A stretch of 64,000 nucleotides of DNA from Psychroserpens ponticola (GTDB taxonomy: Bacteria; Bacteroidota; Bacteroidia; Flavobacteriales; Flavobacteriaceae): positions 2,801,001 to 2,865,000 of the forward strand of contig NZ_CP116221.1 in the NCBI RefSeq assembly GCF_023556315.2, read 5' to 3'. The notes beneath the pieces were generated by a model. That model worked only from the letters and a program-made list of their open reading frames with translations, was not told the origin of the DNA and did no database searches. The position numbers were made by a program, and so were the translations under genes. Shown in pieces: positions 7,579-30,034 of this stretch; the stretch's first letter is position 1, and every line of letters begins with the position of its first letter.

Positions 7579-8343
7579 TTAAATACCTAATGCTTGTCCA
7601 CCACCAATTTGGATCGTTTCTGCAGTTATAAAAGCAGCATCTTTACTTGCTAAGAAAGAAATAACACCAGCTACATCTTCAGGTTGACCTAATCTTCCTA
7701 ACATAATATTATTTGCCCATGAAGCAAAAACTTCTGGTTTTGTTGCTTTAATTTGAGCATGAAATGGTGTATCAATGGTTCCAGGTGAAACTGCATTTGC
7801 TCTAATACCATATTCCGCTAAATCTTTTGCCAATGCTCTTGTAATTGCATGAACTCCAGCTTTAGATGTTCCATAAACACCAGCTCCAGGTCCACCTGCA
7901 GTCCATCCAGCATTTGAAGTATAATTAATTATAGAAGGATGTTCTCCTTTTTTCAGAAATGGTATTGCTGCTCTTGAAGCAAAAAACACAGAATCTAAGT
8001 TAAGCGCCATAACAAATCTGTAAAAATCAGTTGTCATTTCTTCAAAACGAGATCTTCCTCCTAATCCACCAGCATTGTTAACTAGCACATCAATTTTACC
8101 ATATTTTTCACCAATTTTAGTGATGTTAGAAGTTACGTCATCTTCTTTTGTAACGTCAAAGCCGTAATACTCAGCGCTAATACCTTGATTTGTAAGCTCT
8201 TTAACTCTTTTAGCTCCCGCTTCATCATCGATACCATTTAAAACTACAGTATATCCATCTTGACCTAATCTTTCAGCAACTGCAAATCCAATACCTCCTG
8301 TAGCACCTGTTATTATAGCTACTTTTCCTTTATTTTTACTCAT
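7579..8343 (-). CDS. SDR oxidoreductase, probable DEH reductase
   Basis: A 254-residue classical short-chain dehydrogenase/reductase. The cofactor motif TGATGGIG is at 12-19, NNAGG at 89-93, and the catalytic triad residues Ser143, Tyr157 and Lys161 (YGTSK) are present. In alginate loci, SDRs in this position reduce 4-deoxy-L-erythro-5-hexoseulose uronate (DEH) to KDG with NAD(P)H, feeding KdgK. The locus has kdgK, kdgA and kdgF but no other DEH reductase, so this gene fills the gap. It is the last gene of the gntR-MFS-SDR operon, 23 bp after the permease, and an intrinsic terminator follows. NADH or NADPH preference cannot be read securely. Confidence 0.85.
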   Translation of the reverse strand: MSKNKGKVAIITGATGGIGFAVAERLGQDGYTVVLNGIDDEAGAKRVKELTNQGISAEYYGFDVTKEDDVTSNITKIGEKYGKIDVLVNNAGGLGGRSRFEEMTTDFYRFVMALNLDSVFFASRAAIPFLKKGEHPSIINYTSNAGWTAGGPGAGVYGTSKAGVHAITRALAKDLAEYGIRANAVSPGTIDTPFHAQIKATKPEVFASWANNIMLGRLGQPEDVAGVISFLASKDAAFITAETIQIGGGQALGI

Positions 8344-8366
8344 CTTTTAATAGTATATTTTATTAT

Positions 8367-9638
8367 TTAATTTATTTCGTTTTCTATAGGTTTAATCTCT
8401 TTTATCAATAGATTAATTGACAATACTGCTAACGGAGCTAATACAGCTAATATTATAAATGCTGGTGTGTATGATTCAGTAGTTATTATCGGTATCAACC
8501 AGTTCATAATAATTACAGAAACAGCTCCAATACTTCCACCTAATCCAGCTAGTGTTCCAACGGATTTCCCATTCAATAGATCACTTGGAATAGTTTGAAT
8601 GTTACTAATTGAAAATTGGAATCCAAATAATACAACAAACACAAAAGACACAAATTTCTCAGGTGTATCGGCAAATAATATCGCTCCGACAATTGCAAAA
8701 ACAATTATTACGGCTCCAATAGTGATTACTTTTTTTCTTGATTTATCTAAGCTATTGTTATTCATTAATTTTTTCACATACCAACCTCCAGCGAGACTAC
8801 CAATTGCAGCTCCTACATATGGAAACCATGCATAATAGCCTATTTCTTTTACATTAAACCCAAATTCTTTATATAAGTAAATTGGCATCCAAAACACAAA
8901 CAACCACCAAATTGGTTCAATAAAAAAGCGTGAAGCAATTACTCCCCAAGATTCTTTCATAGAAAGGATCTCCATTACACTTAAACTTTTATCATCATCA
9001 TTATCTCGCCTAGATTCTAATCGACCTGAGACGATATGATTCTTCTCTTCATCAGTAATCCATGGATGCAATTTCGGTTTATTTTTGTTCATTATTAACC
9101 AAGGAATAATCCATATAAATCCTAAAACACCAATAATTACAAATGTTACTTTCCAACCATAAGCGCCAAATAATTCTGCAACAGTAGGTGCAGCAATTAT
9201 TGAACCGATAGCAGCACCAGCATTAAATATACCTTGTGCAACAGCTCTTTCTTTAATAGGAAACCACTCTGCATTATTTTTTACTGCTCCAGGCCAATTA
9301 CCAGCTTCAGCAACACCTAATAATCCTCTAAATATCCCTAAAGAAGCTGCTCCTCTAGCGAAGAAGTGTAACACACTAGCTAAAGACCAAAAGAAAATAG
9401 ACAATACAAATCCTATTTTTGTTCCAACCTTATCATATACTTTACCTGAAATAAATTTACCAGCTGCATATGTGATTGTAAATATATTTATAACCCAAGC
9501 ATAATCTTCTTCAGTAAGGCCTAAATCTTTACTCATTTCTGGCCACATTATTCCTAATGCTGATCTATCAATATAATTGATAACTGTGGCGAGGCAAACT
9601 AAGCCTATAATCCACCATCTAAGTCCTTTTACTTTCAT
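8367..9638 (-). CDS. MFS permease of the hexuronate/anion:cation symporter type
   Basis: A 423-residue, 12-helix major facilitator. The N-terminal helix contains TVINYIDRSALGIMWPEM, the signature of the anion:cation symporter (ExuT/phthalate permease) family. An AEAGNWPGAVK segment at about 110-121 is another marker of that family. Enterobacterial ExuT imports hexuronates; here the expected cargo is unsaturated monouronate, DEH or a related uronate released in the periplasm by the exolyases. It is flanked by the GntR regulator (22 bp) and the DEH-reductase-like SDR (23 bp) in one operon. The role is family and context inference. Confidence 0.88.
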   Translation of the reverse strand: MKVKGLRWWIIGLVCLATVINYIDRSALGIMWPEMSKDLGLTEEDYAWVINIFTITYAAGKFISGKVYDKVGTKIGFVLSIFFWSLASVLHFFARGAASLGIFRGLLGVAEAGNWPGAVKNNAEWFPIKERAVAQGIFNAGAAIGSIIAAPTVAELFGAYGWKVTFVIIGVLGFIWIIPWLIMNKNKPKLHPWITDEEKNHIVSGRLESRRDNDDDKSLSVMEILSMKESWGVIASRFFIEPIWWLFVFWMPIYLYKEFGFNVKEIGYYAWFPYVGAAIGSLAGGWYVKKLMNNNSLDKSRKKVITIGAVIIVFAIVGAILFADTPEKFVSFVFVVLFGFQFSISNIQTIPSDLLNGKSVGTLAGLGGSIGAVSVIIMNWLIPIITTESYTPAFIILAVLAPLAVLSINLLIKEIKPIENEIN

Positions 9639-9660
9639 ATTTGGTTAGTCTGTTATTAAA

Positions 9661-10362
9661 TTAAACATTATAACAATATTGGTATAACACGCTAAAGTGT
9701 GCTTTCATTTTTGCCTTAGCTAATTGTGGTTTTTGTCTTTTTATCGCATCGAATATCTCTTCGTGTTCTTTAACTCCTCTTTGAGAGAGTCCTTTATCAC
9801 AAACGTGATATTTTTCAAAATTTGTAATGATTTCAGGTGTTATAACAAGCATAAACGCATTCATGGTGCTATTTCCACTTGCTTTAGCAATTGCCAAATG
9901 AAAAAGTAAATCCTCTTGAACTGCATCTTCACCTTTTAAAACTTTTTGATTATAAGCATCTAGGGCTACTTTTAATTTTTCAAGATCCTCATCTGTTCTT
10001 CTAATCGCAGCCAAACGCACTGTTTTTAATTCTAATAAAATTCTAGTTTCCACTAAAGATTTAAAATCTGGATCTTCTAATCTCAAAATATCTTCAATCA
10101 TTCCATTCATGGCAATGACACCAATATTGGCAACAAAAGTTCCGCTTTGTGGAATTGATTTTAAGAGTCCATAAAATTCTAATTTCTGAATTGCTTCTCG
10201 AACAACACTTCTAGTTACTTCAAATTTTTCTGACAACATTCGCTCCGAAGGTAATTTATCTCCAGGCTCAAGATTTTTATGATTTATAAGTTCTCCTATT
10301 TTGGAAATGATAATCTTTTGAACATTCTGATTATCTGCTTTTGTAAGTGTTTCTATTTTCAT
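9661..10362 (-). CDS. GntR-family (FadR subfamily, FCD domain) regulator of the alginate locus
   Basis: A 233-residue regulator with an N-terminal GntR winged helix (about 12-80; LEPGDKLPSERMLSEKF, then TRSVVREAIQKLE) and a C-terminal all-helical FCD ligand domain (about 100-228). Probable FCD metal/ligand residues Asp151, His155, His200 and His222 are in place. FadR/UxuR-type proteins bind TGGTNNACCA-like palindromes, and exactly this motif occurs as tandem pairs over three promoters of the locus (17078, 22291, 31984). I infer that this protein represses those promoters and is released by a uronate intermediate. No such box lies before the gntR gene itself. It heads the gntR-MFS-SDR operon. 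Confidence 0.9.
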   Translation of the reverse strand: MKIETLTKADNQNVQKIIISKIGELINHKNLEPGDKLPSERMLSEKFEVTRSVVREAIQKLEFYGLLKSIPQSGTFVANIGVIAMNGMIEDILRLEDPDFKSLVETRILLELKTVRLAAIRRTDEDLEKLKVALDAYNQKVLKGEDAVQEDLLFHLAIAKASGNSTMNAFMLVITPEIITNFEKYHVCDKGLSQRGVKEHEEIFDAIKRQKPQLAKAKMKAHFSVLYQYCYNV

Positions 10363-10401
10363 ATTTTAAAATCTCATTAACTTTCAATTAAAAATGTCTG
10401 A

Positions 10402-10441
10402 TAAATTTATAAAAATATTACACGGAACAAGTGTTTATTCC
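10402..10441 (-). promoter_or_regulatory. Candidate promoter of the gntR-MFS-SDR operon
   Basis: On the minus strand, TTG (plus 10428-10430) is followed after 18 nt by TAAATTTA (plus 10402-10409), one base from TAnnTTTG. A near-inverted repeat, GGAACAA-N4-TTATTCC (10424-10441), overlaps the TTG element and could bind a regulator. It differs from the TTGGTNNACCA boxes used elsewhere. Weak promoter match. Confidence 0.4.
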
Positions 10442-10466
10442 TACAAAAAATTCAACAATACTTAAA

Positions 10467-10503
10467 GAATTCTACTCATCTACATTTAGGATTAGTAGAA
10501 TTC
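10467..10503. terminator. Perfect 10-bp inverted repeat after the susCD operon, possible terminator
   Basis: Arms GAATTCTACT (10467-10476) and AGTAGAATTC (10494-10503) are exactly complementary across a 17-nt loop, 29 bp after the PL7 stop. On the minus strand the hairpin is followed only by TTTAAG, so the U-tract is poor. It may be a weak terminator, an mRNA 3'-end stabiliser or an operator. Confidence 0.45.
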
Positions 10504-10531
10504 AATAAGCGACAAACTCAAATAATCAATC

Positions 10532-11431
10532 TTAATGTTTTACTTCTAAATTATAATATCTCACTCTTGCGAAAGCACCTTCATCTCGTGATTGAAAATA
10601 ATTGCCAGCTTTGAAATAATTTTCAAATATTCCCCATTTTGACATATGGATATTTTCGTACACTTTATACTCGTTATCATTTAAAATAATCACCATTTTT
10701 CCTTCAGAAACTTGAACTTCAAGAGTGAATTTTTTAAAATCTACTTTTTCTTTAAAATTAAACCCTTCATCATTTCCCCATGCATCTTCGTGAAGCATTT
10801 CAGTTTCAGTAGCATTTAAGTTTTTAAGAACTTTAGTTTTAATTCTAATCTTACCTTTATCCCAATATATTTTCAACATTGGTGGTGCATTGTTATCATC
10901 TTGACCTATTAAATCTCTTTGTTCATTAGTTAATCTGCCATGAATTTGCATAATAATAACGCGATGATATTTTCCATCTTCACCTCTAGTAACTTCATCA
11001 ATTGCAAGTTTGCCTTTCATAATGCCTCCTTGCTTGAATGTCCAGTTCGTATTATTATCACCTGGAATCATTTGTTCTCTTAACTCAGATCTAGAATATT
11101 TAGTATTTCTAGTTGTAGCTTGACTTGGATATGCATGAAATACAAGCGCACCTCGACTCGAATCGTTGTACATGTATGGAATTAACTTCTCATTTGTAGC
11201 ATAATCCATAATTTCAGGAGGTGAAACCTCGTAAGGTTTTTTACCATCTCCAGAAGGTGTTGTCACCTTCCAATGTGACAAATCAATATCTGGCAACTTA
11301 CTTTTTTTCCTTTTTTTCTTCTTCTTCTTTTTTTCCTTTTTAATTACAGAGTTAGAAGTTGTGCTCATGGATTGGCAGTTAGCTGCCAATCCAAAAAAGA
11401 ACACAAATAAGAATGTATAATAAATCTTCAT
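10532..11431 (-). CDS. PL7 alginate lyase with a polylysine linker
   Basis: A 299-residue protein that cleaves alginate by beta-elimination. The PL7 fold (alginate_lyase2) occupies about 46-298 with the three family motifs: RSELR at 114-118, QIHG at 162-165 and YFKAGNYFQ at 272-280, supplying the catalytic Arg, Gln, His and Tyr. A signal peptide ends around residues 18-20; the Cys there has a poor lipobox (AANC), so lipoprotein status is uncertain. Residues 31-45 are almost all lysine or arginine, which could hold the enzyme against anionic alginate or the cell surface. It is the last gene of the susC-susD-PKD-PL7 operon, 10 bp after the PKD protein. Endo or exo mode is not readable. Confidence 0.93.
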   Translation of the reverse strand: MKIYYTFLFVFFFGLAANCQSMSTTSNSVIKKEKKKKKKKRKKSKLPDIDLSHWKVTTPSGDGKKPYEVSPPEIMDYATNEKLIPYMYNDSSRGALVFHAYPSQATTRNTKYSRSELREQMIPGDNNTNWTFKQGGIMKGKLAIDEVTRGEDGKYHRVIIMQIHGRLTNEQRDLIGQDDNNAPPMLKIYWDKGKIRIKTKVLKNLNATETEMLHEDAWGNDEGFNFKEKVDFKKFTLEVQVSEGKMVIILNDNEYKVYENIHMSKWGIFENYFKAGNYFQSRDEGAFARVRYYNLEVKH

Positions 11432-11441
11432 TAATTTTTAT

Positions 11442-12344
11442 TTAATCGTCAGCAGCAAGTGTAAACGTATCAATATAAGCTTCATCTAACTCATTAAAGA
11501 AGTAAATTGCTAACGTAGTATTTGTTCCAGAATTAAATGATAACGTACCTGTCGCTAATTCACTTGTTCCAACAACATCTTCTGAAAATGAAACTGAAGC
11601 AACTGTATTAGCTGCTACATCAGCTGGATCGGTTGTTGGCTTAACCATTAAAACATTTAGTACTCCGAACATATCAGATACATCATCTTTTAAACGGTAT
11701 CTAAACGATAAAACATAATCTGTATTTGGTGTAAAATCACCTATTTCTTGATACCCTATTCTATCGGCTGATTCAGGTAATTTTCCTCCATAATTTCCAT
11801 CATGATAACCACTTGATCCTGTTATTTGTAACACACCACCTAGATCAGAATTTCTCCAAACAGCTCTACTATCAATCTCAACTGGATCATCACCTGCATC
11901 ACCATTATCAAAACCTGGTTCAAGTATTTCAGGGATTAAAACGTCTGGCACTTCTGGCTCAACGATCTCTAAAGTTTTTGTAACAGTACTAGAAACACCA
12001 TTACCATCTGTAGCGGTTAGTGTTACTGAGTACATACCTTCACCTGGATAGGTTTTTTCAGCATCAGAATCACTAGATGTTGTATTATCATCAAACTCCC
12101 ATAAATACGTAATTGCATTTGATGATAAGTTTGCGAACGTATAATCTTTCCATTCTTCATTTTGCCCTACACCTTGTGAGAAAGAAAAATCTGCTGAAGG
12201 AGGTGTTGCGTCTGCAATAGAATTAGCACCTAGTGGTTCATATTTATCCAGATCACTGCACGATTGTGATAAAGCCAATAACACAATAAACATGCTAGCT
12301 CTATAAATTGATTTTGTTAAAAATTTCTTCATTTTATTATGCAT
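11442..12344 (-). CDS. PKD-domain surface glycan-binding lipoprotein
   Basis: A 300-residue lipoprotein: a signal peptide with lipobox LSQSC (Cys29), an Ig-like PKD domain at about 45-128 (YLWEFDDNTTSSDSDAEKTY, then YSVTLTATDGNG), and a C-terminal beta-sandwich of about 150 residues resembling carbohydrate-binding modules (GYHDGNYGGKL, FRYRLKDD). It sits directly after susD, where Bacteroidota polysaccharide loci encode the SusE/F-type glycan-binding protein. It probably captures alginate at the outer surface and hands it to SusD/SusC. ATGs at 12344 and 12332 are both possible; the second gives the more usual signal peptide start (MKKFLTKS). Confidence 0.82.
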   Translation of the reverse strand: MHNKMKKFLTKSIYRASMFIVLLALSQSCSDLDKYEPLGANSIADATPPSADFSFSQGVGQNEEWKDYTFANLSSNAITYLWEFDDNTTSSDSDAEKTYPGEGMYSVTLTATDGNGVSSTVTKTLEIVEPEVPDVLIPEILEPGFDNGDAGDDPVEIDSRAVWRNSDLGGVLQITGSSGYHDGNYGGKLPESADRIGYQEIGDFTPNTDYVLSFRYRLKDDVSDMFGVLNVLMVKPTTDPADVAANTVASVSFSEDVVGTSELATGTLSFNSGTNTTLAIYFFNELDEAYIDTFTLAADD

Positions 12345-12347
12345 TTT

Positions 12348-13793
12348 TTAGTTATATCCTGGGTTTTGTGATAAACGCCCATTACTTAAGTTAATTTCTC
12401 TTTGTGGTATTGGCAATAAAAGATCTGTAGCAGTAAAATTATAACCATTAGCTGCTGAAAAAACAGACAATACATTTTGAGCCTCTCCAAAACGAATTAG
12501 ATCAAATAAACGTTGGTTTTCATATGCTAACTCAACTCGACGTTCATCTAACAATTCTTGCTTAGTAATGTTATCATCATCATCACCAGATAAACCTGCT
12601 CTTAATCTCACTTCTTCAAATGAGTCTAATGCTCCTTGAACACTAGTACTAGAACCTCCAGCCATAATTGCTTCTACATGCATTAATAATACATCAGCAT
12701 AACGTATTACAATCCAATCATTACCTGCAGAAGTTGGATCACTTGATGTTGGATCAATTCCTAAATCATCATCACCATCTGGTAGATATTTTACGACTTG
12801 AAATTGTGTTGGTTGACCTGTATCTACTCTATAAGAATATAATGTTCTATCACCACCTAATTCATCTAGTGCATTTCGAGAATCAACAGTTGTATAATTC
12901 ACACCACTTGTTCTACCTACAGCGTTTAACCATTCTGCAGAGAAGTTTTGACTATCATTACTATCTGGAAAATAACCAATAGCAAATATAATTTCACTAT
13001 TCAATTCATTAAAGAAGACATCTTTAAAGTTAGGCTGTAACATAAAACCACTACTCATTATTTCTTCACATAAAATTTGTGCTTCTAAGTAATTCGTTCC
13101 TTGTGTCAAGTAAACTTTAGCTAATAAAGCTTGAGCTGCTGCTTTTGACGCTCTCGTTTTATAAGTGTTATCTAAACCTGCAACTGCATTTTCAAGATCT
13201 TCTTCAATAAAAGCATAAATATCAGCTGTATTAACTCGTGTAAATGCAACATCTAAATAACTAGAATCATTTGGATCTAATACTTGATCTACTAACGGAA
13301 TATCTCCAAACAATCTTACTAAGTTAAAATAAGCATAAGCTCTAACAAATTTTGCTTCAGCTTCAATTTTTGCTTTATTTTCATCAGAAGCTACATTCAA
13401 GTTAAGCAATACAATATTTGCTCTAAATATAACATTGTAAAAACTATTGTAATAATCTTGAACGATACCATTTGTAGGCTGAATTGAATAATTTTCAAAT
13501 TGAGCAGCTTCACCTTCTGAACTTTTAGTTCTGGTATTATCACTTCTCATCTCCGTAAGATAAAACTCTTGTTGCATCCCATGATAATCATTAGATACAG
13601 TAGAATTAATTCCTTGAATACCATCATACATATTAATAACAGCTCCATTCAACTGCTCTTCCGTAGTATAAAAAGTGTTTGCGTTAATTAATGACTCTAA
13701 CTCTGGAGATAGATAATCTTCTCCGCAAGCTGAGGTCGCAGCCATTACTAATAGTAACACTATAATTTTAATTGATTTCATAATATATTTCAT
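12348..13793 (-). CDS. susD: SusD/RagB-family glycan-binding lipoprotein
   Basis: A 481-residue SusD homologue: lipoprotein signal with Cys near residue 23 (ATSAC), an N-terminal SusD-like domain with TPR helices (AEAKFVRAYAYFNLVRLFGD) and the C-terminal RagB/SusD domain with the usual ending LLPIPQREINLSNGRLSQNPGY. It forms the lid of the SusCD import complex and binds alginate oligomers. Its stop is 3 bp before the PKD gene, and it lies 15 bp after susC. ATG at 13793 or the in-frame ATG at 13781 could be the start; the latter gives a cleaner signal peptide. Confidence 0.95.
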   Translation of the reverse strand: MKYIMKSIKIIVLLLVMAATSACGEDYLSPELESLINANTFYTTEEQLNGAVINMYDGIQGINSTVSNDYHGMQQEFYLTEMRSDNTRTKSSEGEAAQFENYSIQPTNGIVQDYYNSFYNVIFRANIVLLNLNVASDENKAKIEAEAKFVRAYAYFNLVRLFGDIPLVDQVLDPNDSSYLDVAFTRVNTADIYAFIEEDLENAVAGLDNTYKTRASKAAAQALLAKVYLTQGTNYLEAQILCEEIMSSGFMLQPNFKDVFFNELNSEIIFAIGYFPDSNDSQNFSAEWLNAVGRTSGVNYTTVDSRNALDELGGDRTLYSYRVDTGQPTQFQVVKYLPDGDDDLGIDPTSSDPTSAGNDWIVIRYADVLLMHVEAIMAGGSSTSVQGALDSFEEVRLRAGLSGDDDDNITKQELLDERRVELAYENQRLFDLIRFGEAQNVLSVFSAANGYNFTATDLLLPIPQREINLSNGRLSQNPGYN

Positions 13794-13808: not shown

Positions 13809-16800
13809 TTAAAATTCTAAATTCAACCCTAATGATATGGTTTGTTGTACAGGTGAACCAGCTCTTTGGTAACCATACGTCGTTGGAGATGTATCGTTTA
13901 TAGATTCTGGATTAAACCCTGTATAATCACTTGCAGTAAAATAAAGAAGGTTTGTTCCACTTGCATACACTCTCGCTTTTGTTAAAAATATTTTAGATAA
14001 TAAACTCTGAGGAAGTGTATAACCTATGTTTACATTACGTAATGCTATATACGAAGCATCTTGAATAATATCGTCTGTAAATATCTTTTCTTTAATGAAT
14101 TCTTTATTTGGTGTATCTGCTGTATAATCTTGAGCACTATTAAAATGATTGAATATATACTGATCTCCCATATTTCTGATTTCAGCACCATGACTTCCTT
14201 GAAACATAAAGCTTAAATCGAAATCTCCAACTTTAAAATCATTAGTTAAACTCCAAACAATGTCTGGATAAGGATCCCCTAAGATTGTTTTATCATCATC
14301 ATCAATTATACCATCACCATTTAAATCTTTCACATACACATCTTGAGCTTCACCTCCAACTGGGTGATATGGATTATTTATATACTGTAAAGGAATATCT
14401 CTATCAACAACCCAACCATAGAAAGAAGAAATTGGATTTCCAACTTGATTAATCCATTCTGCTGCTCTTTTACTATCTACATTTTGAATTTGTCCATCAG
14501 AATCTGCGAAATTAACTAATTTATTTTCGTTTTTAGACACTAACATAGTAGTTGACCATTTGAATTTTTCTTTAGAAATATTTCTAGTTCTTAATTCTAA
14601 TTCAAATCCTGAATTTTCAACTTCACCAATATTAACTAAACGACTGTCTAAACCAGTTGTACCTGAAATTGGATTATCTATAAGAAGTTGATCACTTGTT
14701 CTCTTATAGTATTCTACAGAACCAGATACAATATTATTGAATAAACCAAAATCAATTCCTGGGTTAATCTCTATTGATCGTTCCCATTGTAAATTAGGAT
14801 TTGCAAAGTTAATAGAGTTAAAACCAGGCTCAACGTCACCATCAACAACTGCAGTTGAAGATTGCAATAAAGGTAAGTATGGAAAAGCATCAACAATAGG
14901 ATCTCCTGATCTTAAAAATGGATTACCAGACACACCATAACTCATTCTAATTTTTAACATATTAACAACTTCGCTTTCATTTAAAAAGTCTTCGTTACTA
15001 ACGATCCAACCAACAGAGGCCGCTGCAAAATTACCATACTTACTATCTTCTCCAAAAGAAGAAAATCCATCACGTCTAAAACTTACAGACGCTAAATACT
15101 TATTATCATAAGAGTAGTTTAGCCTTGCTAAATACGATATTAGTCGTTCTGGAATTTCATAAGACACACTCGTTACAGTTGTTGGATCTGCAGCAGTAAT
15201 AGTTTGTAATAAATCCGAATCATAACCAGCACCAGATGTGCTTTCAAAATTGGTATCCCATTTTTCAGCAGAAAAACCAACTATAGCACCAATTTCATGC
15301 TTTCCAAAAATCTTGTCATAAGAAAATATATTATCTGTTACAAAGTGAATTCTGTTTTGTGTAGATAAATCTAATTGTGTTGCAGAGGCACCGTTTCTAC
15401 TTGAAAGAACACCTTGCCAGCGATCTCTTTTAGTATTCTGGAAATCTCCAGACAATGTAGTTCTAAAAGAAAAGTTATCTGTAATGTTATACTTTGCAAA
15501 AACACTACCTGCTAGTTTAAATTTATAATCGTTACGATCACGCTCTAATACTTTTGCCGCTGGATTTGTATTTGAAGTATTACTAATATCTGTTCCACCA
15601 GATTCAACTGGTGACATTGTATCTAGGTCAAAATCATCAAACATTCTTTGTTCAGCGTAATCACCAATTTTCACATTTGCATATTTACCACCATCTCGTA
15701 AACGGTTAACATATTGAATATTACTTGCATCAATATATAATGGCAACCAAGGTGTTTGTCTTAAAATATCGTGAGTAGAACCATCAAAACGTCTTCTATT
15801 AGAATAAGATGGACTTAAATTTGCTCCAATTGAGAATTTATCATTGATTTTAGAATTTACTTTTAATCTTAGTGAATACTTCTTATAATCATCAGTTAAT
15901 AAAACACCCTCATCATGAACATAATTTAAAGACAAACTAAATTTTGTATTTTCATTACCACCTCTAGCTGCAAAAGAGTGACTCTCAATGATACCACCAT
16001 CAAAAATAACATCTTGCCAATCGCGATCTGTACCAATTAATTGCTTAACTCTAGTTCTATCAGATATAGTTCCTGTAGCTGCTTTTTCTGCTCTTGCAGT
16101 TTCAGCTACTGTAAAATAGTAATCATCACTTTGTCTTGCTTCTTTAAAACCTGTAAAGACATTATAAGTAAACTTTGTCTTACCAGCTTTACCTTGCTTT
16201 GTAGTTATTAAAATTACACCATTAGCTCCTCTAGAACCATATATTGCAGCAGAAGCAGCATCTTTTAACACTTCAAAAGATTCAACTTCATTCATATCTA
16301 AGTTACCTAAAAAGTCACTATCAACAACTAAACCATCAACAACAATAGCTGGTGAAGAATCTCCAGAAATTGAACCAGTTCCTCTAATTCGAATTGTTGG
16401 AGCAGAACCCGCTTCACCTTCTGTAGCAGCAATAGTTACACCAGACACCTGACCTACTAAAGCTTCATCAACTCTTGGTACAGCAATTTGATCAAGGTCT
16501 TCATTTTTAACCTTTGATATAGCTCCTGTTAAATGACTCTTTCTCTGAGTACCATAACCGATAACTACAACTTCATCTAATTGAGCTGCGTCTTCAGCCA
16601 ATGAAATACTTAACGTTTGTTGGTCACTAACAATAACTGTTGAGGTAACATAACCTAAATAAGAGAATTGTAACACCTCACCAGAAGCTACATTAATTTC
16701 GAAGTTTCCATCAAAATCTGTAGAAGCACCTCTTGTTGTATTTAGAACTAGAACATTAACACCTGGAATAGGTTGTTGATCTACTTCAGAAACAACTGTC

Positions 16801-16886
16801 CCTTTCAGCAGATAGCTTTCTTGGGCAAACATTGTTACGCTAAATAGTAATGCAACTAATAGCGGTAGTTTGTTTTTTAAATTCAT
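13809..16886 (-). CDS. susC: SusC/RagA-family TonB-dependent receptor
   Basis: A 1025-residue outer-membrane transporter. A signal peptide ends near FAQE. A carboxypeptidase-regulatory-like domain follows at about 25-105 (GVNVLVLNTTRGASTDFDG). The plug comes next, with the TonB-box area DEVVVIGYG and the SusC signature KDAASAAIYGSRGANGVILI near 210. The rest is a 22-strand-type barrel ending in aromatic residues (LGLNLEF). With SusD it imports alginate oligomers using TonB energy. It is the first gene of the susC-susD-PKD-PL7 operon, with a 369-bp upstream region that carries a canonical promoter and tandem regulator boxes. Confidence 0.97.
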   Translation of the reverse strand: MNLKNKLPLLVALLFSVTMFAQESYLLKGTVVSEVDQQPIPGVNVLVLNTTRGASTDFDGNFEINVASGEVLQFSYLGYVTSTVIVSDQQTLSISLAEDAAQLDEVVVIGYGTQRKSHLTGAISKVKNEDLDQIAVPRVDEALVGQVSGVTIAATEGEAGSAPTIRIRGTGSISGDSSPAIVVDGLVVDSDFLGNLDMNEVESFEVLKDAASAAIYGSRGANGVILITTKQGKAGKTKFTYNVFTGFKEARQSDDYYFTVAETARAEKAATGTISDRTRVKQLIGTDRDWQDVIFDGGIIESHSFAARGGNENTKFSLSLNYVHDEGVLLTDDYKKYSLRLKVNSKINDKFSIGANLSPSYSNRRRFDGSTHDILRQTPWLPLYIDASNIQYVNRLRDGGKYANVKIGDYAEQRMFDDFDLDTMSPVESGGTDISNTSNTNPAAKVLERDRNDYKFKLAGSVFAKYNITDNFSFRTTLSGDFQNTKRDRWQGVLSSRNGASATQLDLSTQNRIHFVTDNIFSYDKIFGKHEIGAIVGFSAEKWDTNFESTSGAGYDSDLLQTITAADPTTVTSVSYEIPERLISYLARLNYSYDNKYLASVSFRRDGFSSFGEDSKYGNFAAASVGWIVSNEDFLNESEVVNMLKIRMSYGVSGNPFLRSGDPIVDAFPYLPLLQSSTAVVDGDVEPGFNSINFANPNLQWERSIEINPGIDFGLFNNIVSGSVEYYKRTSDQLLIDNPISGTTGLDSRLVNIGEVENSGFELELRTRNISKEKFKWSTTMLVSKNENKLVNFADSDGQIQNVDSKRAAEWINQVGNPISSFYGWVVDRDIPLQYINNPYHPVGGEAQDVYVKDLNGDGIIDDDDKTILGDPYPDIVWSLTNDFKVGDFDLSFMFQGSHGAEIRNMGDQYIFNHFNSAQDYTADTPNKEFIKEKIFTDDIIQDASYIALRNVNIGYTLPQSLLSKIFLTKARVYASGTNLLYFTASDYTGFNPESINDTSPTTYGYQRAGSPVQQTISLGLNLEF

Positions 16887-17034
16887 AATAATTGTTTTGA
16901 ATTGAATTAATTAATATTAACAATTACTTAAGTTTTAATACACAGCTAATTAATATGTTTTTTTGTAGCTTTGCTTATGTATCTACTTACTAAGTAATTA
17001 CACTTTTTCACTTCTTTTTATAGAAGTTTTTTTT

Positions 17035-17061
17035 AAAAGGATAGGCCCACCCTGTCCTTTT
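17035..17061 (-). promoter_or_regulatory. Stable hairpin in the predicted susC leader
   Basis: The plus-strand arms AAAAGGATAGG and CCTGTCCTTTT pair over 11 positions (one G-T) around a 5-nt loop. It lies downstream of the predicted susC start site, about 150 nt before the coding start, so it would be in the long 5' UTR. On the minus strand A residues follow, so it is not a terminator for susC. It may affect mRNA stability. Confidence 0.5.
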
Positions 17062-17077
17062 TTGTTATAAAAAATAA

Positions 17078-17129
17078 TTGGTTTACCAGATTGGTTTACC
17101 AAATATATATAAAATTTTGTTAATTCCAA
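17078..17129 (-). promoter_or_regulatory. susC promoter with tandem TTGGTTTACCA operators
   Basis: On the minus strand TTG (plus 17127-17129), a 19-nt spacer and TATATTTG (plus 17100-17107) form an exact Bacteroidota promoter. Two TTGGTTTACCA boxes, 17078-17088 and 17091-17101, are direct repeats 13 bp apart. The first overlaps the end of the -7 element and the second covers the start site. A GntR/FadR-type protein bound here should block RNA polymerase. Confidence 0.82.
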
Positions 17130-17255: not shown

Positions 17256-17633
17256 TTACGACTCTTTATCACCAAAATAAGATGGTCCATCACCAGTTAA
17301 GAAATCTTCTCTAACTGGACTAAATGTATCAATTAACTCTCCTTCTTCTAAACAAACTGCACTATGCAATAAATTAGGTTCGACATACACACCATCTCCT
17401 GCTTCTACAATTTGCTTTTCTCCATCAATTTCAAATTCAAATTTACCAGAAACACAAAAGGTAGCTTGTGTATGAAAATGTTGATGCGGTGTACCTAATG
17501 CTCCTTTGTCAAATTTTACTCTTACCATCATGATTTGGTTATCATAACCTAAGAATTTTCTTGATACTCCTCCTCCAAGTACTTCCCATTCGATATCTTT
17601 TGTAACAATATACTTTTCGCTAAATCTTTTCAT
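17256..17633 (-). CDS. kdgF: KdgF-type cupin, uronate linearisation enzyme
   Basis: A 125-residue single-domain cupin. KdgF proteins speed up conversion of the cyclic 4,5-unsaturated monouronate released by lyases to the linear ketone DEH. The cupin metal site is visible as the histidine cluster PHQHFHTQ at 49-56 and His90 in PNLLHSA. The second cupin motif EAGDGVYVEPN is intact. It is the last gene of the PL6-PL17-kdgF operon, 21 bp after the exolyase that makes its substrate. No signal peptide, so cytosolic. The alternative of an unrelated cupin is made unlikely by this position. Confidence 0.9.
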   Translation of the reverse strand: MKRFSEKYIVTKDIEWEVLGGGVSRKFLGYDNQIMMVRVKFDKGALGTPHQHFHTQATFCVSGKFEFEIDGEKQIVEAGDGVYVEPNLLHSAVCLEEGELIDTFSPVREDFLTGDGPSYFGDKES

Positions 17634-17654
17634 AATTTTATAATTTTTATTATT

Positions 17655-19934
17655 CTACTTGAAATAATAAGAACCTGACCATTCATAATTCTTATTGTCT
17701 ATTTTTAAGTTATGTATTACTTCTTTTGAAGCCTTTGTATTTGCTGTAATAAATAGTTTAGTATTACCTTTTACAGTTGTAATTGAAATGGCTGTATAAT
17801 CTACAGTATCTAATATAACTTTTAATCCTTGTATATTACTGTTAGAATTAAACGCAGATTCTGTGACTGGACTATAACTACCATGAGATTCTATAGTTGA
17901 AACAAAAAGTGTGTTTTTTGTGTTTTTTCTTCTTAATAATAATGCAGGATCTCTTCGTAAATTAAATTCAGGATCGTTTGCGCCAATTCTTGTAAAGAAT
18001 AATTCGTCCTTATTATTAGTTATAGAAGTTAAGGTATAAAACTTACGATTGTGTAACCAAGAAAACTTACTGTTTTCATTTGAAGCTTTTGCAGAACCTT
18101 CAACAAATAGATGTTGGTAACCATTTTTTGTTCCTAAAGCTTTTTGAACTTTAGGAGTTTGATAATCAAAATTAGTTTTTAAAACTTGTCCGAAAAAGTA
18201 ATATGGAAAATCATACTGATTGGCTTTGTTAGACATTATCTTCATAATATCTAACATATAAGGCTTTTCGAAATCTTCATCTTTAATGATTGCCATAGTA
18301 CGAAGCATCTCTGTTCCTGGATAAGCATTTGTTTCTTTTGCGCTTACAACTTGAACAGCTTCATTTTCAGAAGAAAAATAATTAAGCACTGAATGATGCT
18401 GACTCCCTATTTCGTATTTCCCGTTAAAATGAGACGTTTCATTTTGTGTTACTGTATTATGAGCAATCGTTTGTTTTGCCCACGTTTTATTTTCTTTCAA
18501 ATAATTTCCACCACCTTTTTGTTCAATATTTACAAAACGTGCTAAACCATAATCTTGAATAACTTCTTCACCTTTTTCATATAACGAATATGATAACTTA
18601 TCATAATGTCCATGACTAGATCCTTGAGCCGCATACTTAAAGACCAATTCTAAATTTTCATTTCTCAAAATACCAACTCCACCCTGTGTTCCATTTGGTC
18701 CATCGGATAAGTTGATTGATTTTTTTTCAAAATGCATTTCTTTTCCATTTTTAATTCCTAGTGCAACAGCCAAACCAGAATCATCTAATAAAACACGATC
18801 TTGTTCTTTTGCTATACTTAATAAACCTGCATCCTGATCTCCAAAATGATACGAAATATCTACAGCAGTGACTAAGGCACTTGTGTAATAGGACATTCCT
18901 TTTTGACCATCATTAAGTGGAAAAAAATCGCCATCAGCATCAGACAAGTTTAATAATGCATTAATTGATTTTAGAAGCACACCTTCTTTGTATTCAAAAA
19001 TCTTTACATCTGGTCTAACATTATGCAATCCTTCAGCAAAAATTAAAAAAGGATACATCGCGTAACGTTGATAATAAGGTCCTTCATTATAATAACCATC
19101 TGGTGAAAACGGTTCTTCTATATTCGCTAAAAAACCTGCCTTTCCATCTTTATTTAAAAAGCCACCATCATCATCTTTAGCGGTTTTGTCTAAATCCACT
19201 CCTTTAATTCCGTATAAAGCACGATCAATTAATTCCTGATCATTCATCACCAAACCTATCATACCAACAGCTGCATTTCCCCAAGTACTATGGTTATGAA
19301 CTCTTTGGTAAAATTGCGGACTGTCAATTGAGATATGATCTGCAAATGGTCTGAATAAATTTGTTTCTAGTTTGTTTCGTTCTTCTTCAGACAAATAATT
19401 ATAGATGCAATCGTATGCTTGACTCACATATACTAACCAGTTTGAATCATTTAAACATTGCCAAAATAATTTGCCTCTAGCATATGATCTTGTTTTTGGA
19501 TGAAGTGGTAATGTTTTATACATTTCCTCGTATTGCATTAACATGTCTTTTACGTATTTAGCATACTTTTCATCCTCTAAAATTTGATATAAAACGCCTG
19601 CTTTTTGCAAAACTACAAAATTACGTTTGTGTCTTGCATGCGTATAACCACCAGAATAATCAACTGGAATTGGTGTTTCTATTCCTGAAGCAATTTCTGC
19701 ATCTATCTCATCTTGTACTGCTTTTAAGGTATTGTCGAAAATTGGAATATTTCCTAATTGCTCTCTAATCTCTTTTACGCCTTGAGCTGTAAGTATTAAT
19801 TTAGGATGCGCTTCTGAAGTTGCTCTTTCACTTTTATTATTTGTATCAGCTACGTTTTCTCTTTTACAAGAAAACGCAGTGAATACAATTGCGACTAAAG
19901 CAAATTTAAGTATGAAATTTTTAGTAATTATCAT
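17655..19934 (-). CDS. PL17 oligoalginate lyase (exo-type)
   Basis: A 759-residue lipoprotein (lipobox AFSC, Cys23). An N-terminal alpha-toroid alginate_lyase domain covers about 40-380 and a C-terminal heparinase II/III-like beta-sheet domain about 400-750. Active-site features of PL17 are present: Asn214-His215 in VHNHSTWGN, the tyrosine-rich SPDGYYNEGPYYQRYA near 281-290, and HGHYDKLSYSLY in the C-terminal domain. PL17 enzymes strip unsaturated monouronates from oligoalginate, probably in the periplasm. It lies 2 bp after the PL6 gene and 21 bp before kdgF, an order matching the reaction order. Confidence 0.93.
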   Translation of the reverse strand: MIITKNFILKFALVAIVFTAFSCKRENVADTNNKSERATSEAHPKLILTAQGVKEIREQLGNIPIFDNTLKAVQDEIDAEIASGIETPIPVDYSGGYTHARHKRNFVVLQKAGVLYQILEDEKYAKYVKDMLMQYEEMYKTLPLHPKTRSYARGKLFWQCLNDSNWLVYVSQAYDCIYNYLSEEERNKLETNLFRPFADHISIDSPQFYQRVHNHSTWGNAAVGMIGLVMNDQELIDRALYGIKGVDLDKTAKDDDGGFLNKDGKAGFLANIEEPFSPDGYYNEGPYYQRYAMYPFLIFAEGLHNVRPDVKIFEYKEGVLLKSINALLNLSDADGDFFPLNDGQKGMSYYTSALVTAVDISYHFGDQDAGLLSIAKEQDRVLLDDSGLAVALGIKNGKEMHFEKKSINLSDGPNGTQGGVGILRNENLELVFKYAAQGSSHGHYDKLSYSLYEKGEEVIQDYGLARFVNIEQKGGGNYLKENKTWAKQTIAHNTVTQNETSHFNGKYEIGSQHHSVLNYFSSENEAVQVVSAKETNAYPGTEMLRTMAIIKDEDFEKPYMLDIMKIMSNKANQYDFPYYFFGQVLKTNFDYQTPKVQKALGTKNGYQHLFVEGSAKASNENSKFSWLHNRKFYTLTSITNNKDELFFTRIGANDPEFNLRRDPALLLRRKNTKNTLFVSTIESHGSYSPVTESAFNSNSNIQGLKVILDTVDYTAISITTVKGNTKLFITANTKASKEVIHNLKIDNKNYEWSGSYYFK

Positions 19935-19936
19935 AT

Positions 19937-22282
19937 TTAGTTTTTAGAAATAGTTCCTATGTCTTGATTATCTGTTCCTTTATTTTTTAAAGAAGAATCA
20001 GCTGACAACTCAAATGTTCCTTCTTTAAATGTTGGTTCAATATTATAAAGGTTAGAAATGTTATGTTTTTGATCTCCTGTTACTATAATCTCATCAGATT
20101 TATAGTAATTATTATTTACGACATTTACAATTGGCTCACCAACAACTAAATGCATGTTTAGCCCTTTCGTATTATTAAAATTGTTATTTTGAATATCGTT
20201 TACCTGAACACCATATAAAGACATTGCAGCTTTATACTTGTTCTTTTTGCCAAAACCTACATTATTAAATACATTGTGATCTACTTCTAAAAATGGACCG
20301 AACGTACTTTCATCTTTTCCACCTCTATACAAACGCAATGCAGCACCTTGCAAATTGGTAACTGTATTATTTTTCATTATCAAGTATTCTACATTATAAG
20401 CTCCAATATCATCCGTTTCTTTATCTAATGCGGTAATATGTCCTGATATATTTTTGAATGTTGAATTTTGAATACTTATCGTATCTGCAAATGTGCCTTT
20501 TGACACTCGAAGCACATCAAACGAATGATTAACGACCATATCTTTAAACTCACAGTTGTCTATAAATAATTTATAGTTATCAATCATTGAGTTTTTACTT
20601 GTACTAATCACAGAATTACCTGCATAATCTGGAGATTTTGTTCCGTCGAAACTTACATTCTCTAATGATAAGCTTCCTCCATTTTGAATCTCGAAAGCCA
20701 TCATACGTTCAAACAAAATCGTTGCTTTTTTAGCTCCTGATGTTTTGAAAGTTAAAGGATGGTTTATTTTTACTGCTTTGGTTATTAAATATGTTCCATC
20801 GTCTTCTAACTCTATAATATCTCCAGCTTCCGAAGTTTTCACAATGTTATACAAGGTATTAATACCAGCTTCCACTTTAATTGTTTTACCAGAATTTAAT
20901 GCAACACTAGTATCTGCTTTAGAATACCAAGTTATACCAGTATTTTCTTTAGTTGCAATCTTTGGACTAATAGTTACTTTATTTTTAATTTTATCTGAAG
21001 TAGGAATTAAGAATCCTTGTTCATTTTTCACCAATGTAATGTCTGCATTTTCAAAACCTTCTTTTATAGTCGTTTTTCCATGTTCGCCTAGAAGATTGTC
21101 TTTAAAAGTGATTCCACTTATATCATCATAAATAGTAAACGTGTCATTCTTGTTTTCGTTATAAAAAATGTTTCCTGAAATTTCTGAAGTTCTAGGCGCT
21201 TGGCTTCTTTCTGAATCACTTCCAGCACATAATTGAATATGATCGCAATTAACAAACGTATTACTATTTAATTTAGAATCGATTACTGGAACGTAACGAT
21301 TTGGTGGCGAATTTGGCACACCATTCATCATCACAAATGCGCCTCTAAAACGGTAACCCGTTAAGCCAACATGATAATTATTTATAACCGTTTGTGTTTC
21401 ATTAATAATACGAACTCCTCCAGTACTTGGTTTTCCATTCCCAATAAATACATTACCATCAACTAAAGTTTCATTTCCATGACGCATGGTTAATGTTCCA
21501 GTACACTCAAAAAATGTATTGTATTTAAATGTGTTTTGACAGGCTTTATTAGAAATGATTTCGTGTTCTCCGTTGGTTCTATCAAAATAATTAGATTCTA
21601 CTAAAGTATTTGAATTTTCCAAGGCGTGATGGCTAGTACCAATTCTTAAAGTTTCTCCTCCATTATTTCCATATGTTGGACGAGGACCAAAATAGTTGTG
21701 ATCTATTTTATGATTGTTTGCTCTACTTCCTTTAGTATCTAAACCAACAATCATAGTGACCCCTAAATTCTTTTTGCCTGCAATGTGATTGTGATCAATA
21801 CGATTATTTTGTCCGTAAATGGTAATCCAATAATCTTGTACTTGACGTTCTGGGTTATTGTAATTATCGATCACACATTCAGTTAAACGGCAATTATTAG
21901 CCATTTCCTCTCTATTTTTTCTGAACGAGATTACTGCGTTAGTTGGCGTGAATCCATTTTTAAAAACGAGTCCTTCAACAATTAAATGCTCTCCAGCTAA
22001 TTGCAAATTAGAATTACCTTCTAGAGTTACTTTTCCTTTATCTTCTACAGTAAGTTTAATTGGATTTTCTGCAGTTCCTTTACCTTCAAAAACGAGTTCA
22101 GCGTCACTCCAAACACCATTAGCTAATGTAATAACATCACCAGGGTTTGCGTTTTTTACTGCATCGTTAAACTCTGTTACGTTTTTAACTTTTAAAACTC
22201 TGGAATTAGCGTCAGCAAAAGACACCGTTAATACTAATAAAATAATGATTGAGACAAAGCCGAGGGAACGTTTGTTTTTCAT
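19937..22282 (-). CDS. PL6 alginate lyase with a second beta-helix domain
   Basis: A 781-residue protein starting at the ATG at 22282. A longer reading from a TTG at 22315 would run through the operator boxes and is rejected. A signal peptide ends near ADAN. The N-terminal right-handed beta-helix (about 30-420) has the chondroitinase-B/PL6 catalytic lysine Lys246 (IISNKAC) and arginine Arg267 (TMRHGN), at the 21-residue spacing seen in the family. A second beta-helix domain follows (about 470-770). Two-domain PL6 enzymes attack MG or MM alginate. First gene of the PL6-PL17-kdgF operon, 113 bp after the Nramp-like gene, with its own promoter. Confidence 0.92.
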   Translation of the reverse strand: MKNKRSLGFVSIIILLVLTVSFADANSRVLKVKNVTEFNDAVKNANPGDVITLANGVWSDAELVFEGKGTAENPIKLTVEDKGKVTLEGNSNLQLAGEHLIVEGLVFKNGFTPTNAVISFRKNREEMANNCRLTECVIDNYNNPERQVQDYWITIYGQNNRIDHNHIAGKKNLGVTMIVGLDTKGSRANNHKIDHNYFGPRPTYGNNGGETLRIGTSHHALENSNTLVESNYFDRTNGEHEIISNKACQNTFKYNTFFECTGTLTMRHGNETLVDGNVFIGNGKPSTGGVRIINETQTVINNYHVGLTGYRFRGAFVMMNGVPNSPPNRYVPVIDSKLNSNTFVNCDHIQLCAGSDSERSQAPRTSEISGNIFYNENKNDTFTIYDDISGITFKDNLLGEHGKTTIKEGFENADITLVKNEQGFLIPTSDKIKNKVTISPKIATKENTGITWYSKADTSVALNSGKTIKVEAGINTLYNIVKTSEAGDIIELEDDGTYLITKAVKINHPLTFKTSGAKKATILFERMMAFEIQNGGSLSLENVSFDGTKSPDYAGNSVISTSKNSMIDNYKLFIDNCEFKDMVVNHSFDVLRVSKGTFADTISIQNSTFKNISGHITALDKETDDIGAYNVEYLIMKNNTVTNLQGAALRLYRGGKDESTFGPFLEVDHNVFNNVGFGKKNKYKAAMSLYGVQVNDIQNNNFNNTKGLNMHLVVGEPIVNVVNNNYYKSDEIIVTGDQKHNISNLYNIEPTFKEGTFELSADSSLKNKGTDNQDIGTISKN

Positions 22283-22290
22283 AAATAAAA

Positions 22291-22342
22291 TTGGTTGACC
22301 AGATTGGTTGACCAATATACATGATTTTTAGTAGTTTGCCAA
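22291..22342 (-). promoter_or_regulatory. Promoter of the PL6-PL17-kdgF operon with tandem TTGGTTGACCA operators
   Basis: On the minus strand TTG (plus 22340-22342), a 20-nt spacer and TATATTGG (plus 22312-22319; one base from TAnnTTTG). Boxes TTGGTTGACCA lie at 22291-22301 and 22304-22314, again 13 bp apart, and end 9 bp before the start codon. The layout is the same as at susC, so the same regulator is expected. Confidence 0.78.
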
Positions 22343-23708: not shown

Positions 23709-25592
23709 TTAATTCCAATTGGTATGATAACTCTTTCCAGAATCATCATCTAATCTTTGATATGTATGCGCACCAAAAAAATCTCTTTGCGCTTGGATAA
23801 CATTAGCTGAAGCGTATTTTGTTGTAATTCCAATTAAAAAATGTATAGCTTCTCCTAAAGCAGGTGTTGAAATGTCATTAAGAATACTTTGGGACACTAC
23901 CTTTTTTAACGCTGGCATATATTGTTTAACGTAAGCAATTAATTGTGGATGGGTTAGTATATTATCTGTGTGTTTAAAGACTTCAACCAATTCTTCCATT
24001 AAAGTTGATCTTATAATACAACCGTTTGTCCAAATTCTAGCAATTTCACTAAGATTTAAATTCCATTGATATTTATTAGACGCCTCAGCAATTAATTTAA
24101 AACCTTGATAATGATTTATAATTCTAGCGAATTGATACGCTTCTAAAACATCATTTGTTGTCAGATTTAATTCTGAAGAATTTACACTTTCAAAATTCTT
24201 ATTTAGCTGAATTCTTTCATCTTTATAAAAAGAAACATATCGTGAAAACAATGCAGAAGCAATCAAAGTACTAGGTACACCAAGTTCTGCCGAAGCGATC
24301 GTTGTCCAGTTCCCTGTACCTTTATTTCCTGCTTTATCCAAAATCTTTTTCACCAACCATTCATCTCCTTCTTTCTTTCTAAAAATAGCAGTAGTTATTT
24401 CTAATAGATAACTACTTGCAGCGTTTTTCCAACCATCTAACGTATTTGCGATATCGTCAGGTTTTTGTCCTAAAGCTTCTATAATGGTAGACACTTCAGC
24501 CAATAATTGCATTTCTACATACTCGATACCATTGTGGACCATTTTTATGAATTGTCCACTTCCTTCAGTACCAACATATGTACAACATGGCAAACCATTT
24601 TTATCTTTAGCTGAAATAGTTTCTAGAAAAGGTGCTACTTTCTCATAGGCTTCTTTATCTCCACTTGGCATAATAGATGGTCCTTTAAGAGCACCTTCTT
24701 CTCCTCCAGAAACACCAGTTCCTATAAAATGAATTCCTTTAGACTTTAAATAATCGTAACGTTCTTTCGTTTTTTTATAGTTTGAATTACCGCCATCAAT
24801 AATAATATCGTTTTCAGACAAATGAGGCAATAAATCTTCAATTACATAATCAATTGTTTTTCCAGCATTAACCATTAACATGATACGTCTTGGTTGCTGT
24901 AAAGAATTGACAAAAGCAAAAATATCATCAAAATCAGAAGCTTCAGACAATTCTGGATATTCAGCTTTAAAATTTTTAGCGACATGCTCTTCAACGCCAT
25001 CAACATGCCTATTAAACATTGAAATTTTAAATCCGTTATTGGCTAAATTTCTGCATAGGCTTTTTCCCATAACTCCTAGACCAAATAATCCAAATTCTGA
25101 GGTATTCATTAATTTGTTTTTTATAGTTTTCACAATGTTTTCTGGTGTCAAGCTAATATCTATTTGTAATGCGTCTTTAGGATGTTCTAAAATATCGAAT
25201 TGTGATTTCAGTAATTCTGAAGGCATAAAATGATCTGATCTACTATTCATTCTTTTAAAAATCTGCTCAAAAGATCCTGATAAATGCACCCATTTAGCTT
25301 TACTTTCAATATCACGACTTAATGTATCTCGATACGTTTCCTTTAAAGCTGAACAAACGATAATACAACTATTTTCTTTTAGTTGCTTTTTAGCCAAATC
25401 GTTTAAAGTCTCCAACCAACCTTGTCTATCATCATCATTTAAGGCTTGTCCGCTAGACATTTTTGTAACATTATGCTCTGGATGAAAATCGTCACCATCA
25501 AAAAAAGGGATATCTAATTCTTGAGCTAATAGTTTTCCGATAGTGCTTTTTCCACAACCAGAAACTCCTATAACAAATATTACTTTTTTCAA
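23709..25592 (-). CDS. Fusion of gluconokinase and 6-phosphogluconate dehydrogenase
   Basis: A 627-residue protein with two apparently complete enzymes in one frame. Residues 1-160 are a GntK-type gluconate kinase with P-loop GVSGCGKST (9-17) and DGDDFHPEHNVTKM. Residues from about 162 are a decarboxylating 6-phosphogluconate dehydrogenase with the NADP motif GLGVMG (171-176), IDGGNSNYKKT and the active-site segment IKMVHNGIEY; about 466 residues, the family's normal size. Together they would turn gluconate into ribulose-5-phosphate, CO2 and NADPH. It lies 11 bp after a PL7 gene. Gluconate is not an alginate product, so its role may be NADPH supply or co-use of another sugar acid. Confidence 0.93.
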   Translation of the reverse strand: MKKVIFVIGVSGCGKSTIGKLLAQELDIPFFDGDDFHPEHNVTKMSSGQALNDDDRQGWLETLNDLAKKQLKENSCIIVCSALKETYRDTLSRDIESKAKWVHLSGSFEQIFKRMNSRSDHFMPSELLKSQFDILEHPKDALQIDISLTPENIVKTIKNKLMNTSEFGLFGLGVMGKSLCRNLANNGFKISMFNRHVDGVEEHVAKNFKAEYPELSEASDFDDIFAFVNSLQQPRRIMLMVNAGKTIDYVIEDLLPHLSENDIIIDGGNSNYKKTKERYDYLKSKGIHFIGTGVSGGEEGALKGPSIMPSGDKEAYEKVAPFLETISAKDKNGLPCCTYVGTEGSGQFIKMVHNGIEYVEMQLLAEVSTIIEALGQKPDDIANTLDGWKNAASSYLLEITTAIFRKKEGDEWLVKKILDKAGNKGTGNWTTIASAELGVPSTLIASALFSRYVSFYKDERIQLNKNFESVNSSELNLTTNDVLEAYQFARIINHYQGFKLIAEASNKYQWNLNLSEIARIWTNGCIIRSTLMEELVEVFKHTDNILTHPQLIAYVKQYMPALKKVVSQSILNDISTPALGEAIHFLIGITTKYASANVIQAQRDFFGAHTYQRLDDDSGKSYHTNWN

Positions 25593-25603
25593 TACTTCTA
25601 AAT

Positions 25604-26656: not shown

Positions 26657-26669
26657 ATTACTCTCTTAA

Positions 26670-29941: not shown

Positions 29942-29983
29942 TTGAAATGATATAAGATTTATTTAAGTGTCTACTAAAAATAC

Positions 29984-30016: not shown

Positions 30017-30034
30017 GAAGTTGCTAAAATCAAA

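Follow-up and report, generated by a model that had tools for sequence, protein, structure and literature searches.

Phase-locked tandem operators and a candidate antisense RNA in an alginate utilization locus of Psychroserpens ponticola

The alginate locus and its fused promoters

Brown algae contain alginate as one of their main polysaccharides, and Flavobacteriaceae are among its important consumers. The stretch of Psychroserpens ponticola DNA analysed here, 64,000 nucleotides in full and called the window below, contains an alginate locus with the following genes:

7579..13793, minus strand: rest of the susC run, encoding SusD, a PKD protein, Alginate_lyase2 (PL7), GntR, an MFS transporter and an SDR protein
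9661..10362, minus strand: GntR/FCD regulator of AusR type, 233 residues (PF00392, 1.5e-17; PF07729, 1.3e-25)
13809..16886, minus strand: SusC/RagA TonB-linked transporter (TIGR04056, E 1.2e-238)
17256..22282, minus strand: Chondroitinas_B (PL6), Alginate_lyase with Hepar_II_III_C (PL17) and a KdgF-like cupin
23709..31979, minus strand: PL7, a lamin-tail protein, PL6, a protein of no assigned type, PL7 and a kinase/6PGD fusion
23709-25592: the kinase/6PGD fusion gene in this lyase run

The PL family names (PL6, PL7, PL17) are assigned from the Pfam names, and the operon extents of the susC run (7579..13793) and the PL7 run (23709..31979) are predicted. Genes for a KDPG aldolase and a PfkB-type kinase also lie nearby in the window, flanked by LacI-type regulators. 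The three alginate operons are preceded by promoters and paired boxes:

17100..17129, minus strand: susC promoter, TTG-N19-TATATTTG, its -7 element fused to operator box 1
17079..17101, minus strand: tandem operator of the susC operon, two TGGTNNACCA boxes in 13-bp phase
22312..22342, minus strand: promoter of the PL6 operon, TTG-N20-TATATTGG, which departs from TAnnTTTG at one base
22292..22314, minus strand: tandem operator of the PL6-PL17-kdgF operon, 9 nt upstream of the PL6 ATG at 22282
32006..32035, minus strand: promoter of the second lyase operon (PL7), TTG-N19-TATATTTG
31985..32007, minus strand: tandem operator of the second lyase operon, 5 nt upstream of the PL7 ATG at 31979

A preliminary description of this DNA had placed two copies of TTGGTNNACCA exactly 13 bp apart at each of three promoters, and all three pairs are indeed there and perfect (17078-17088/17091-17101, 22291-22301/22304-22314 and 31984-31994/31997-32007, 13 bp start to start), over the promoters of the alginate operons. 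Its remark that 13 bp is not an integral number of helical turns also stands, at about 1.24 turns. The overlap of box 1 with the -7 element that it described is exact at susC and PL7, where the final TTG of the element doubles as the first TTG of box 1, and deviates by one base at PL6. Box matches with at most one mismatch number 43 in the window versus 14.2 ± 4.2 in shuffles, and the composite pair arose in none of 300 Markov-resampled windows, with a chance expectation of about 1.7e-6 per window and 1e-4 per genome.

A search of the whole 4.03-Mb genome for the composite motif returned only four perfect pairs, all upstream of alginate-type genes at distances of 5-192 nt, the longest being that from operator to susC in the window. 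The fourth pair (G000:C1:3636877-3636900) lies outside the window, about 0.8 Mb away and 26 nt upstream of an unlinked 839-residue PL6-type gene, whose protein combines a secretion tail with the Chondroitinas_B domain also found in the window's PL6 proteins. No fifth perfect pair was found genome-wide, and the one match with two mismatches (888707) lies inside an ORF. By the comparative tests of this analysis, the operator pairs look functional.

Isolated boxes carry little meaning in this genome, because their count (29 + 31 matches, 12 of which come from the four pairs) is near that of a reversed-pattern control (23 + 26) and most lie in ORFs: among the 30 single-box loci listed, 26 fall inside ORFs of at least 100 aa, with five places counted on both strands and one locus (L014) at a contig end, where placement relative to ORFs is unreliable. 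Single boxes were therefore rejected as regulon members here. One palindromic single box is intergenic (G000:C1:3138885). Within the window, no box was found upstream of gntR, where it might have pointed to autoregulation, or within 300 bp upstream of the KDPG-aldolase and PfkB-kinase genes.

The fusion of promoter and operator recurs in relatives. We aligned 43 tandem sites (43 of 46 matches, leaving out L096 1912, L108 8144 and L117 14139), orienting them by hand from the downstream gene. TAnn[TA]TTG is fused to box 1 at the window's offset in 37 of the 43, lies elsewhere in one, and is missing nearby in five; the consensus over all 43 is approximately TAtaTTTGGTaaACCAAtyTGGTwaACCAATT, with the TTG common to promoter and box 1 in 37. 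At the sequence level, these promoters form a single cassette with their operators: the -7 element continues into box 1, and box 2 follows 13 bp later. At 18 of 23 lyase sites the start codon comes 5-35 nt after the site, and the distance from operator to susC start is 184-316 nt in the tandem-site loci; across the named loci, which are the best 80 of 335 found (1.55 Mb, two of them from one genome), it is 27-346 nt.

The regulator and the spacing of its boxes across the family

The 233-residue protein combines a GntR wHTH domain with a C-terminal FCD domain, the arrangement of the FadR subfamily, and the best Foldseek matches to its structure model are GntR-family (GntR/FCD) structures, at moderate model confidence (pLDDT 74.6, pTM 0.57). 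Its distribution follows that of the box pair closely. Among 146 relatives the pair is present in 18 genomes and the GntR in 19, with all 18 falling within the 19. Across 397 genomes of the family, the GntR occurs in 103 and a pair spaced 11-41 bp in 102, with both in 97, the GntR only in six, the pair only in five, and neither in 289; the Fisher value of 3e-78 for these 397 genomes is not a probability of independent events, because the genomes are related. None of the 294 family genomes without the GntR has a pair at 13 or 26 bp, and the five pair-only genomes stand outside the 13-bp rule because their spacings are 12, 18, 28, 33 and 41 bp. Among the matches listed for the 97 genomes with both GntR and pair (11-41 bp), the spacing is 13 or 26 bp save in one (G244:C12, 36 bp), and one of the six GntR genomes without a perfect pair (G041) carries a degenerate triple array in phase. 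The proposal in the preliminary description that the locus forms one alginate regulon under its own GntR is thereby supported by co-occurrence across genomes, by the targets, and by an AusR-like gene context, all of it evidence from sequence.

The spacing itself follows a strict rule. In the best 80 of 335 loci, perfect TGGTNNACCA pairs within 60 bp of each other lie at 13 bp (98 pairs), 26 bp (20) or 39 bp (2) and at no other distance, and the reversed pattern gives no pairs in the same 80 loci. Perfect boxes in these best 80 of 335 loci form 87 arrays in 66 loci (72 of two boxes, 14 of three and one of four), of which 81 are fused, on one strand or both, to a -7-like element; 61 arrays precede SusC, 22 other locus genes and two unclassified genes, and two stand at locus ends. 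Of the 71 loci holding a susC start, again from the best 80 of 335, 70 have an array (a pair with at most one mismatch) within 450 bp. In 75 GntR genomes, 37 of 41 matches spaced 14-44 bp are spaced 26 bp, many with a weakened middle box in phase; other spacings in GntR genomes are 15 bp (G338:C20), 36 bp (G244:C12), 42 bp (G326:C2) and 43 bp (G182:C12). Arrays also stand before a P-loop kinase that by eye resembles gluconate kinase in two relatives (L105 3850 and L118 8582), and near a protein of 316-322 residues whose start is twin-arginine-like (L094 5954, L102 6246 and L117 14139).

A further kind of site lies at the regulator gene. A single perfect box starts 21-48 nt upstream of the ausR ATG in 35 of the 80 relatives (best 80 of 335), near position 9965 of the 20.7-kb loci in L187-L261, where it nearly always reads TGGTTAACCA; some relatives have a weak second box one 13-bp phase upstream. 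These single boxes suggest autoregulation in relatives. The single box upstream of ausR is absent in the window and in L182-L186.

The operator system appears from its sequence to be of the same kind as AusR, already described in Zobellia; the AusR regulon of Zobellia galactanivorans DsijT was reportedly set out by Dudek et al. in NAR in 2020. To this known kind the present analysis contributes the exact 13-bp phase, which holds as a strict lattice across many genera, together with the fusion of promoter and operator, a fourth target and the candidate antisense RNA described below. In published accounts, Zobellia AusR is reported to be a GntR repressor within the alginate locus that represses most alginate genes (PMC7874173, PMC8286568, PMC8073546), with operators in single, double or triple copies (PMC7874173). 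The present regulator is likewise a GntR/FCD protein inside an alginate polysaccharide utilization locus (PUL), and its operators are double at four promoters in this genome and single and triple in relatives. The Zobellia locus also shares a TonB-dependent transporter, a SusD-like protein, PKD proteins, PL7 and PL17, with PL6 in some Zobellia, but the genus is another one (here, the Psychroserpens group) and the likeness is one of gene context taken from published descriptions. The accessible part of PMC12842492 held nothing on operators.

Other GntR regulators help to define the operator class. The preliminary description called the boxes FadR/UxuR-type palindromes; according to PMC4494728, UxuR palindromes have 2 nt between GT and AC and FadR/ExuR palindromes 3 nt. 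The UxuR half of that assignment holds, as the present boxes have the 2-nt spacing, and the FadR half does not: in the best 80 of 335 loci, 2-nt palindromes number 272 and 3-nt palindromes 28, and we rejected the FadR/ExuR class. The protein itself differs from the gammaproteobacterial UxuR (FadR subfamily), scoring 68.7 of the 442 bits that mark the cut-off of the Uxu regulator model. NanR of E. coli is also a GntR-type regulator acting on a repeated operator, and according to PMC8012715 it binds with high affinity only where repeats are arranged in a defined way; its repeats are direct ones, on which it cooperates through a 32-residue N-terminal extension. Here the repeats are inverted and the Pfam GntR match begins at residue 18, leaving no long NanR-like N-terminal arm, so we set aside a NanR-type operator.

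We propose that the GntR/FCD protein encoded in the locus, an AusR-type repressor, has the paired boxes as its operators, and put the probability of this reading at about 0.9. It is very improbable that they belong instead to another regulator encoded elsewhere, with the co-occurrence merely mirroring the alginate locus. Boxes and GntR do travel with the same gene cluster, and LacI-type regulators do flank the KDPG-aldolase and PfkB-kinase genes in the window; yet the boxes are GntR-type palindromes (PMC4494728), the repressor reported for Zobellia is a GntR protein in a similar gene context, and the single boxes upstream of ausR suggest autoregulation. We also think it rather unlikely that the two boxes make up one extended site for a single dimer or tetramer instead of two dimer sites, even though 70 of 71 loci with a susC start (from the best 80 of 335) have the pair, extra half-sites 7-12 nt from the centre of a GntR-family palindrome are described in PMC4494728, and a tetrameric regulator of the GntR superfamily has been reported. 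Single boxes precede ausR in 35 of the best 80 of 335 loci, and arrays of three and four boxes keep the phase, so that repeated units fit better.

A candidate antisense RNA in the susC leader

On the strand opposite susC, the leader that separates the operator from the gene contains a second conserved element:

16966..16973, plus strand: putative -7 element TAGCTTTG of the antisense RNA
16979..17063, plus strand: candidate antisense RNA of about 85 nt in the susC leader, with predicted ends
17035..17063, plus strand: intrinsic terminator of the antisense RNA, 15 nt from the operator core

A scan of 16880-17260 found one terminator, on the antisense strand only, with a shuffle mean of 0.0. In relatives the leader stem-loops are kept, reading on the plus-strand RNA as a nearly invariant upstream stem-loop, ACTTC...GAAGT, followed by the terminator AAAAGGAyrGG...CCyrTCCTTTTTT, which in many relatives ends 12-16 nt from the operator. 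TAnnTTTG with all six bases stands upstream in 35 of 48 loci versus 4.2 expected from mononucleotide shuffles (from the best 80 of 335 loci); in the window, a TTG at the -33 distance from the antisense -7 element is absent. No Rfam family reached its gathering score in 16800-22500, and the six Rfam matches up to E 10 in 16880-17260 are all far below theirs. Our literature search, in which Dudek 2020 and Cao 2016 were covered at second hand, found no paper on this antisense RNA.

We aligned 33 sequences (32 distinct) from 36 long leaders, omitting L234, L235 and L249, which have no clear hairpin, and re-placing L189 by hand; because rows were positioned by a hairpin followed by a run of T on the antisense strand, this alignment favours that strand. 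In it, pairing is kept in 98.4% of cells, and both sides have changed in four pairs. Of 500 shuffles, none reached its covariation score, one its number of both-side pairs, and 38 its number of further pair types. The terminator stem accounts for 363 cells over the 33 rows, of which 326 are Watson-Crick, 32 G.U on the antisense strand, one G.U on the susC strand and four neither; in 16 held-out loci, found by the covariance model itself, the corresponding figures for 176 cells are 159, 12, two and three.

The covariance model tracks the regulator. Among the 146 relatives, a strong match (E < 1e-8, one per genome) is found in 18 of the 19 that have the GntR (the exception is G036) and in none of the 127 relatives without it, where the best match is 5e-6 (G135); these counts use stricter filters, and some match at E at most 0.1 is found in 87 of the 146 genomes, most of them weak. 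Matches with E < 1e-4 occur in 48 of the 80 named loci (best 80 of 335), 32 of which were in the training alignment; 48 of 48 are antisense to susC, and all have an operator box with at most one mismatch within 170 nt. Nine weaker matches (E at least 7e-4) in the best 80 of 335 loci lie on the other strand, most overlapping the same hairpin. Among loci with a susC start and an array, from the best 80 of 335, the RNA is present in 47 of 50 leaders of at least 150 nt and in none of 20 shorter ones, including the short leader of L182, among the closest relatives by GntR sequence. The candidate is found in long leaders and absent from short ones even between close relatives, which provides natural matched loci with and without the RNA, such as long-leader loci of Kordia and short-leader loci of Winogradskyella.

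Elsewhere, the second-best match to the antisense model in this genome is weak (E 0.0036), and a weak match in the window at 41248-41303 on the plus strand (31 bits, E 9e-4) is possibly just a terminator. No similar antisense terminator was found at three inspected SusC-like genes of this genome (L293-L295, two of which score over the TIGR04056 family cut-off), out of 33 further TIGR04056 matches. One genome (G048:C4) has two copies of the candidate antisense RNA beside two SusC-like stretches (L096 1785-1850 and 9708-9773), which suggests that the RNA was duplicated together with the locus.

The hairpins could in principle act in the susC mRNA, as a leader regulator on the sense strand, and the folding of that strand, too, exceeds that of shuffles (z -4.3, versus -5.4 for the antisense strand). 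We consider this unlikely: read on the antisense strand, the terminator stem has 32 G.U against one A.C in the 33 training rows and 12 against two in the 16 held-out loci, the terminator is found on the antisense strand only, and the TAnnTTTG element stands upstream on that strand. Equally doubtful is the idea that the terminator serves just to keep stray antisense transcripts out of the operator region and that there is no functional small RNA. Its closeness to the operator, 12-16 nt in many relatives, would suit such a role, but the upstream stem-loop ACTTC...GAAGT is nearly invariant too, and leaders without the element are short, as would fit a gene cassette. In layout the candidate resembles the DonS RNAs of Bacteroides. 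These measure 78-128 nt, lie antisense to the susC homologues of PULs and diverge from them, and lower the expression of these genes (PMC7366714); FopS RNAs are described as repressing translation of SusC-like transporters (PMC11697453). The candidate is similarly short, at about 85 nt, with the same orientation relative to susC, and may work like DonS; it differs in belonging to another family and PUL, in lying in a leader that adjoins a repressor array, and in being known from sequence alone.

A proposed two-layer control of alginate uptake

We propose that the alginate susC of Flavobacteriaceae is under a two-layer switch, made up of a phase-locked AusR array and a facing DonS-like antisense RNA that forms a removable cassette, a model we hold to be somewhat better than even. 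In the first layer, repressor on the boxes would occupy the spot where RNA polymerase opens and leaves the promoter, and plain occlusion of the polymerase is suggested because the array reaches from the -7 element over the probable start site. When alginate is absent, two dimers on neighbouring boxes would hold the lyase and uptake operons off, and alginate breakdown products would free the repressor from its operators. The 13-bp phase sets half-sites alternately 6 and 7 bp apart, so that neighbouring dimers would touch or nearly touch, and cooperation between dimers on paired boxes is plausible. The number of boxes may grade repression, from one (ausR in relatives) through two (the lyases and susC) to three or four (susC of some relatives).

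A second layer of control at susC is likely in this strain. The RNA of about 85 nt would be transcribed against susC through the leader, in the direction of the operator, and stop at the terminator just before it, and would pair with the susC leader, collide with susC transcription, or both.

Sequence alone suffices to predict the regulon by means of the 24-bp composite, which has four perfect matches here, all before alginate-type genes. The spacing rule makes it possible to test cleanly how GntR dimers share the DNA. Should the antisense RNA prove real, the control of SusC by small antisense RNAs known from gut Bacteroides would extend to marine Flavobacteriaceae, and would reach a locus whose repressor is known.
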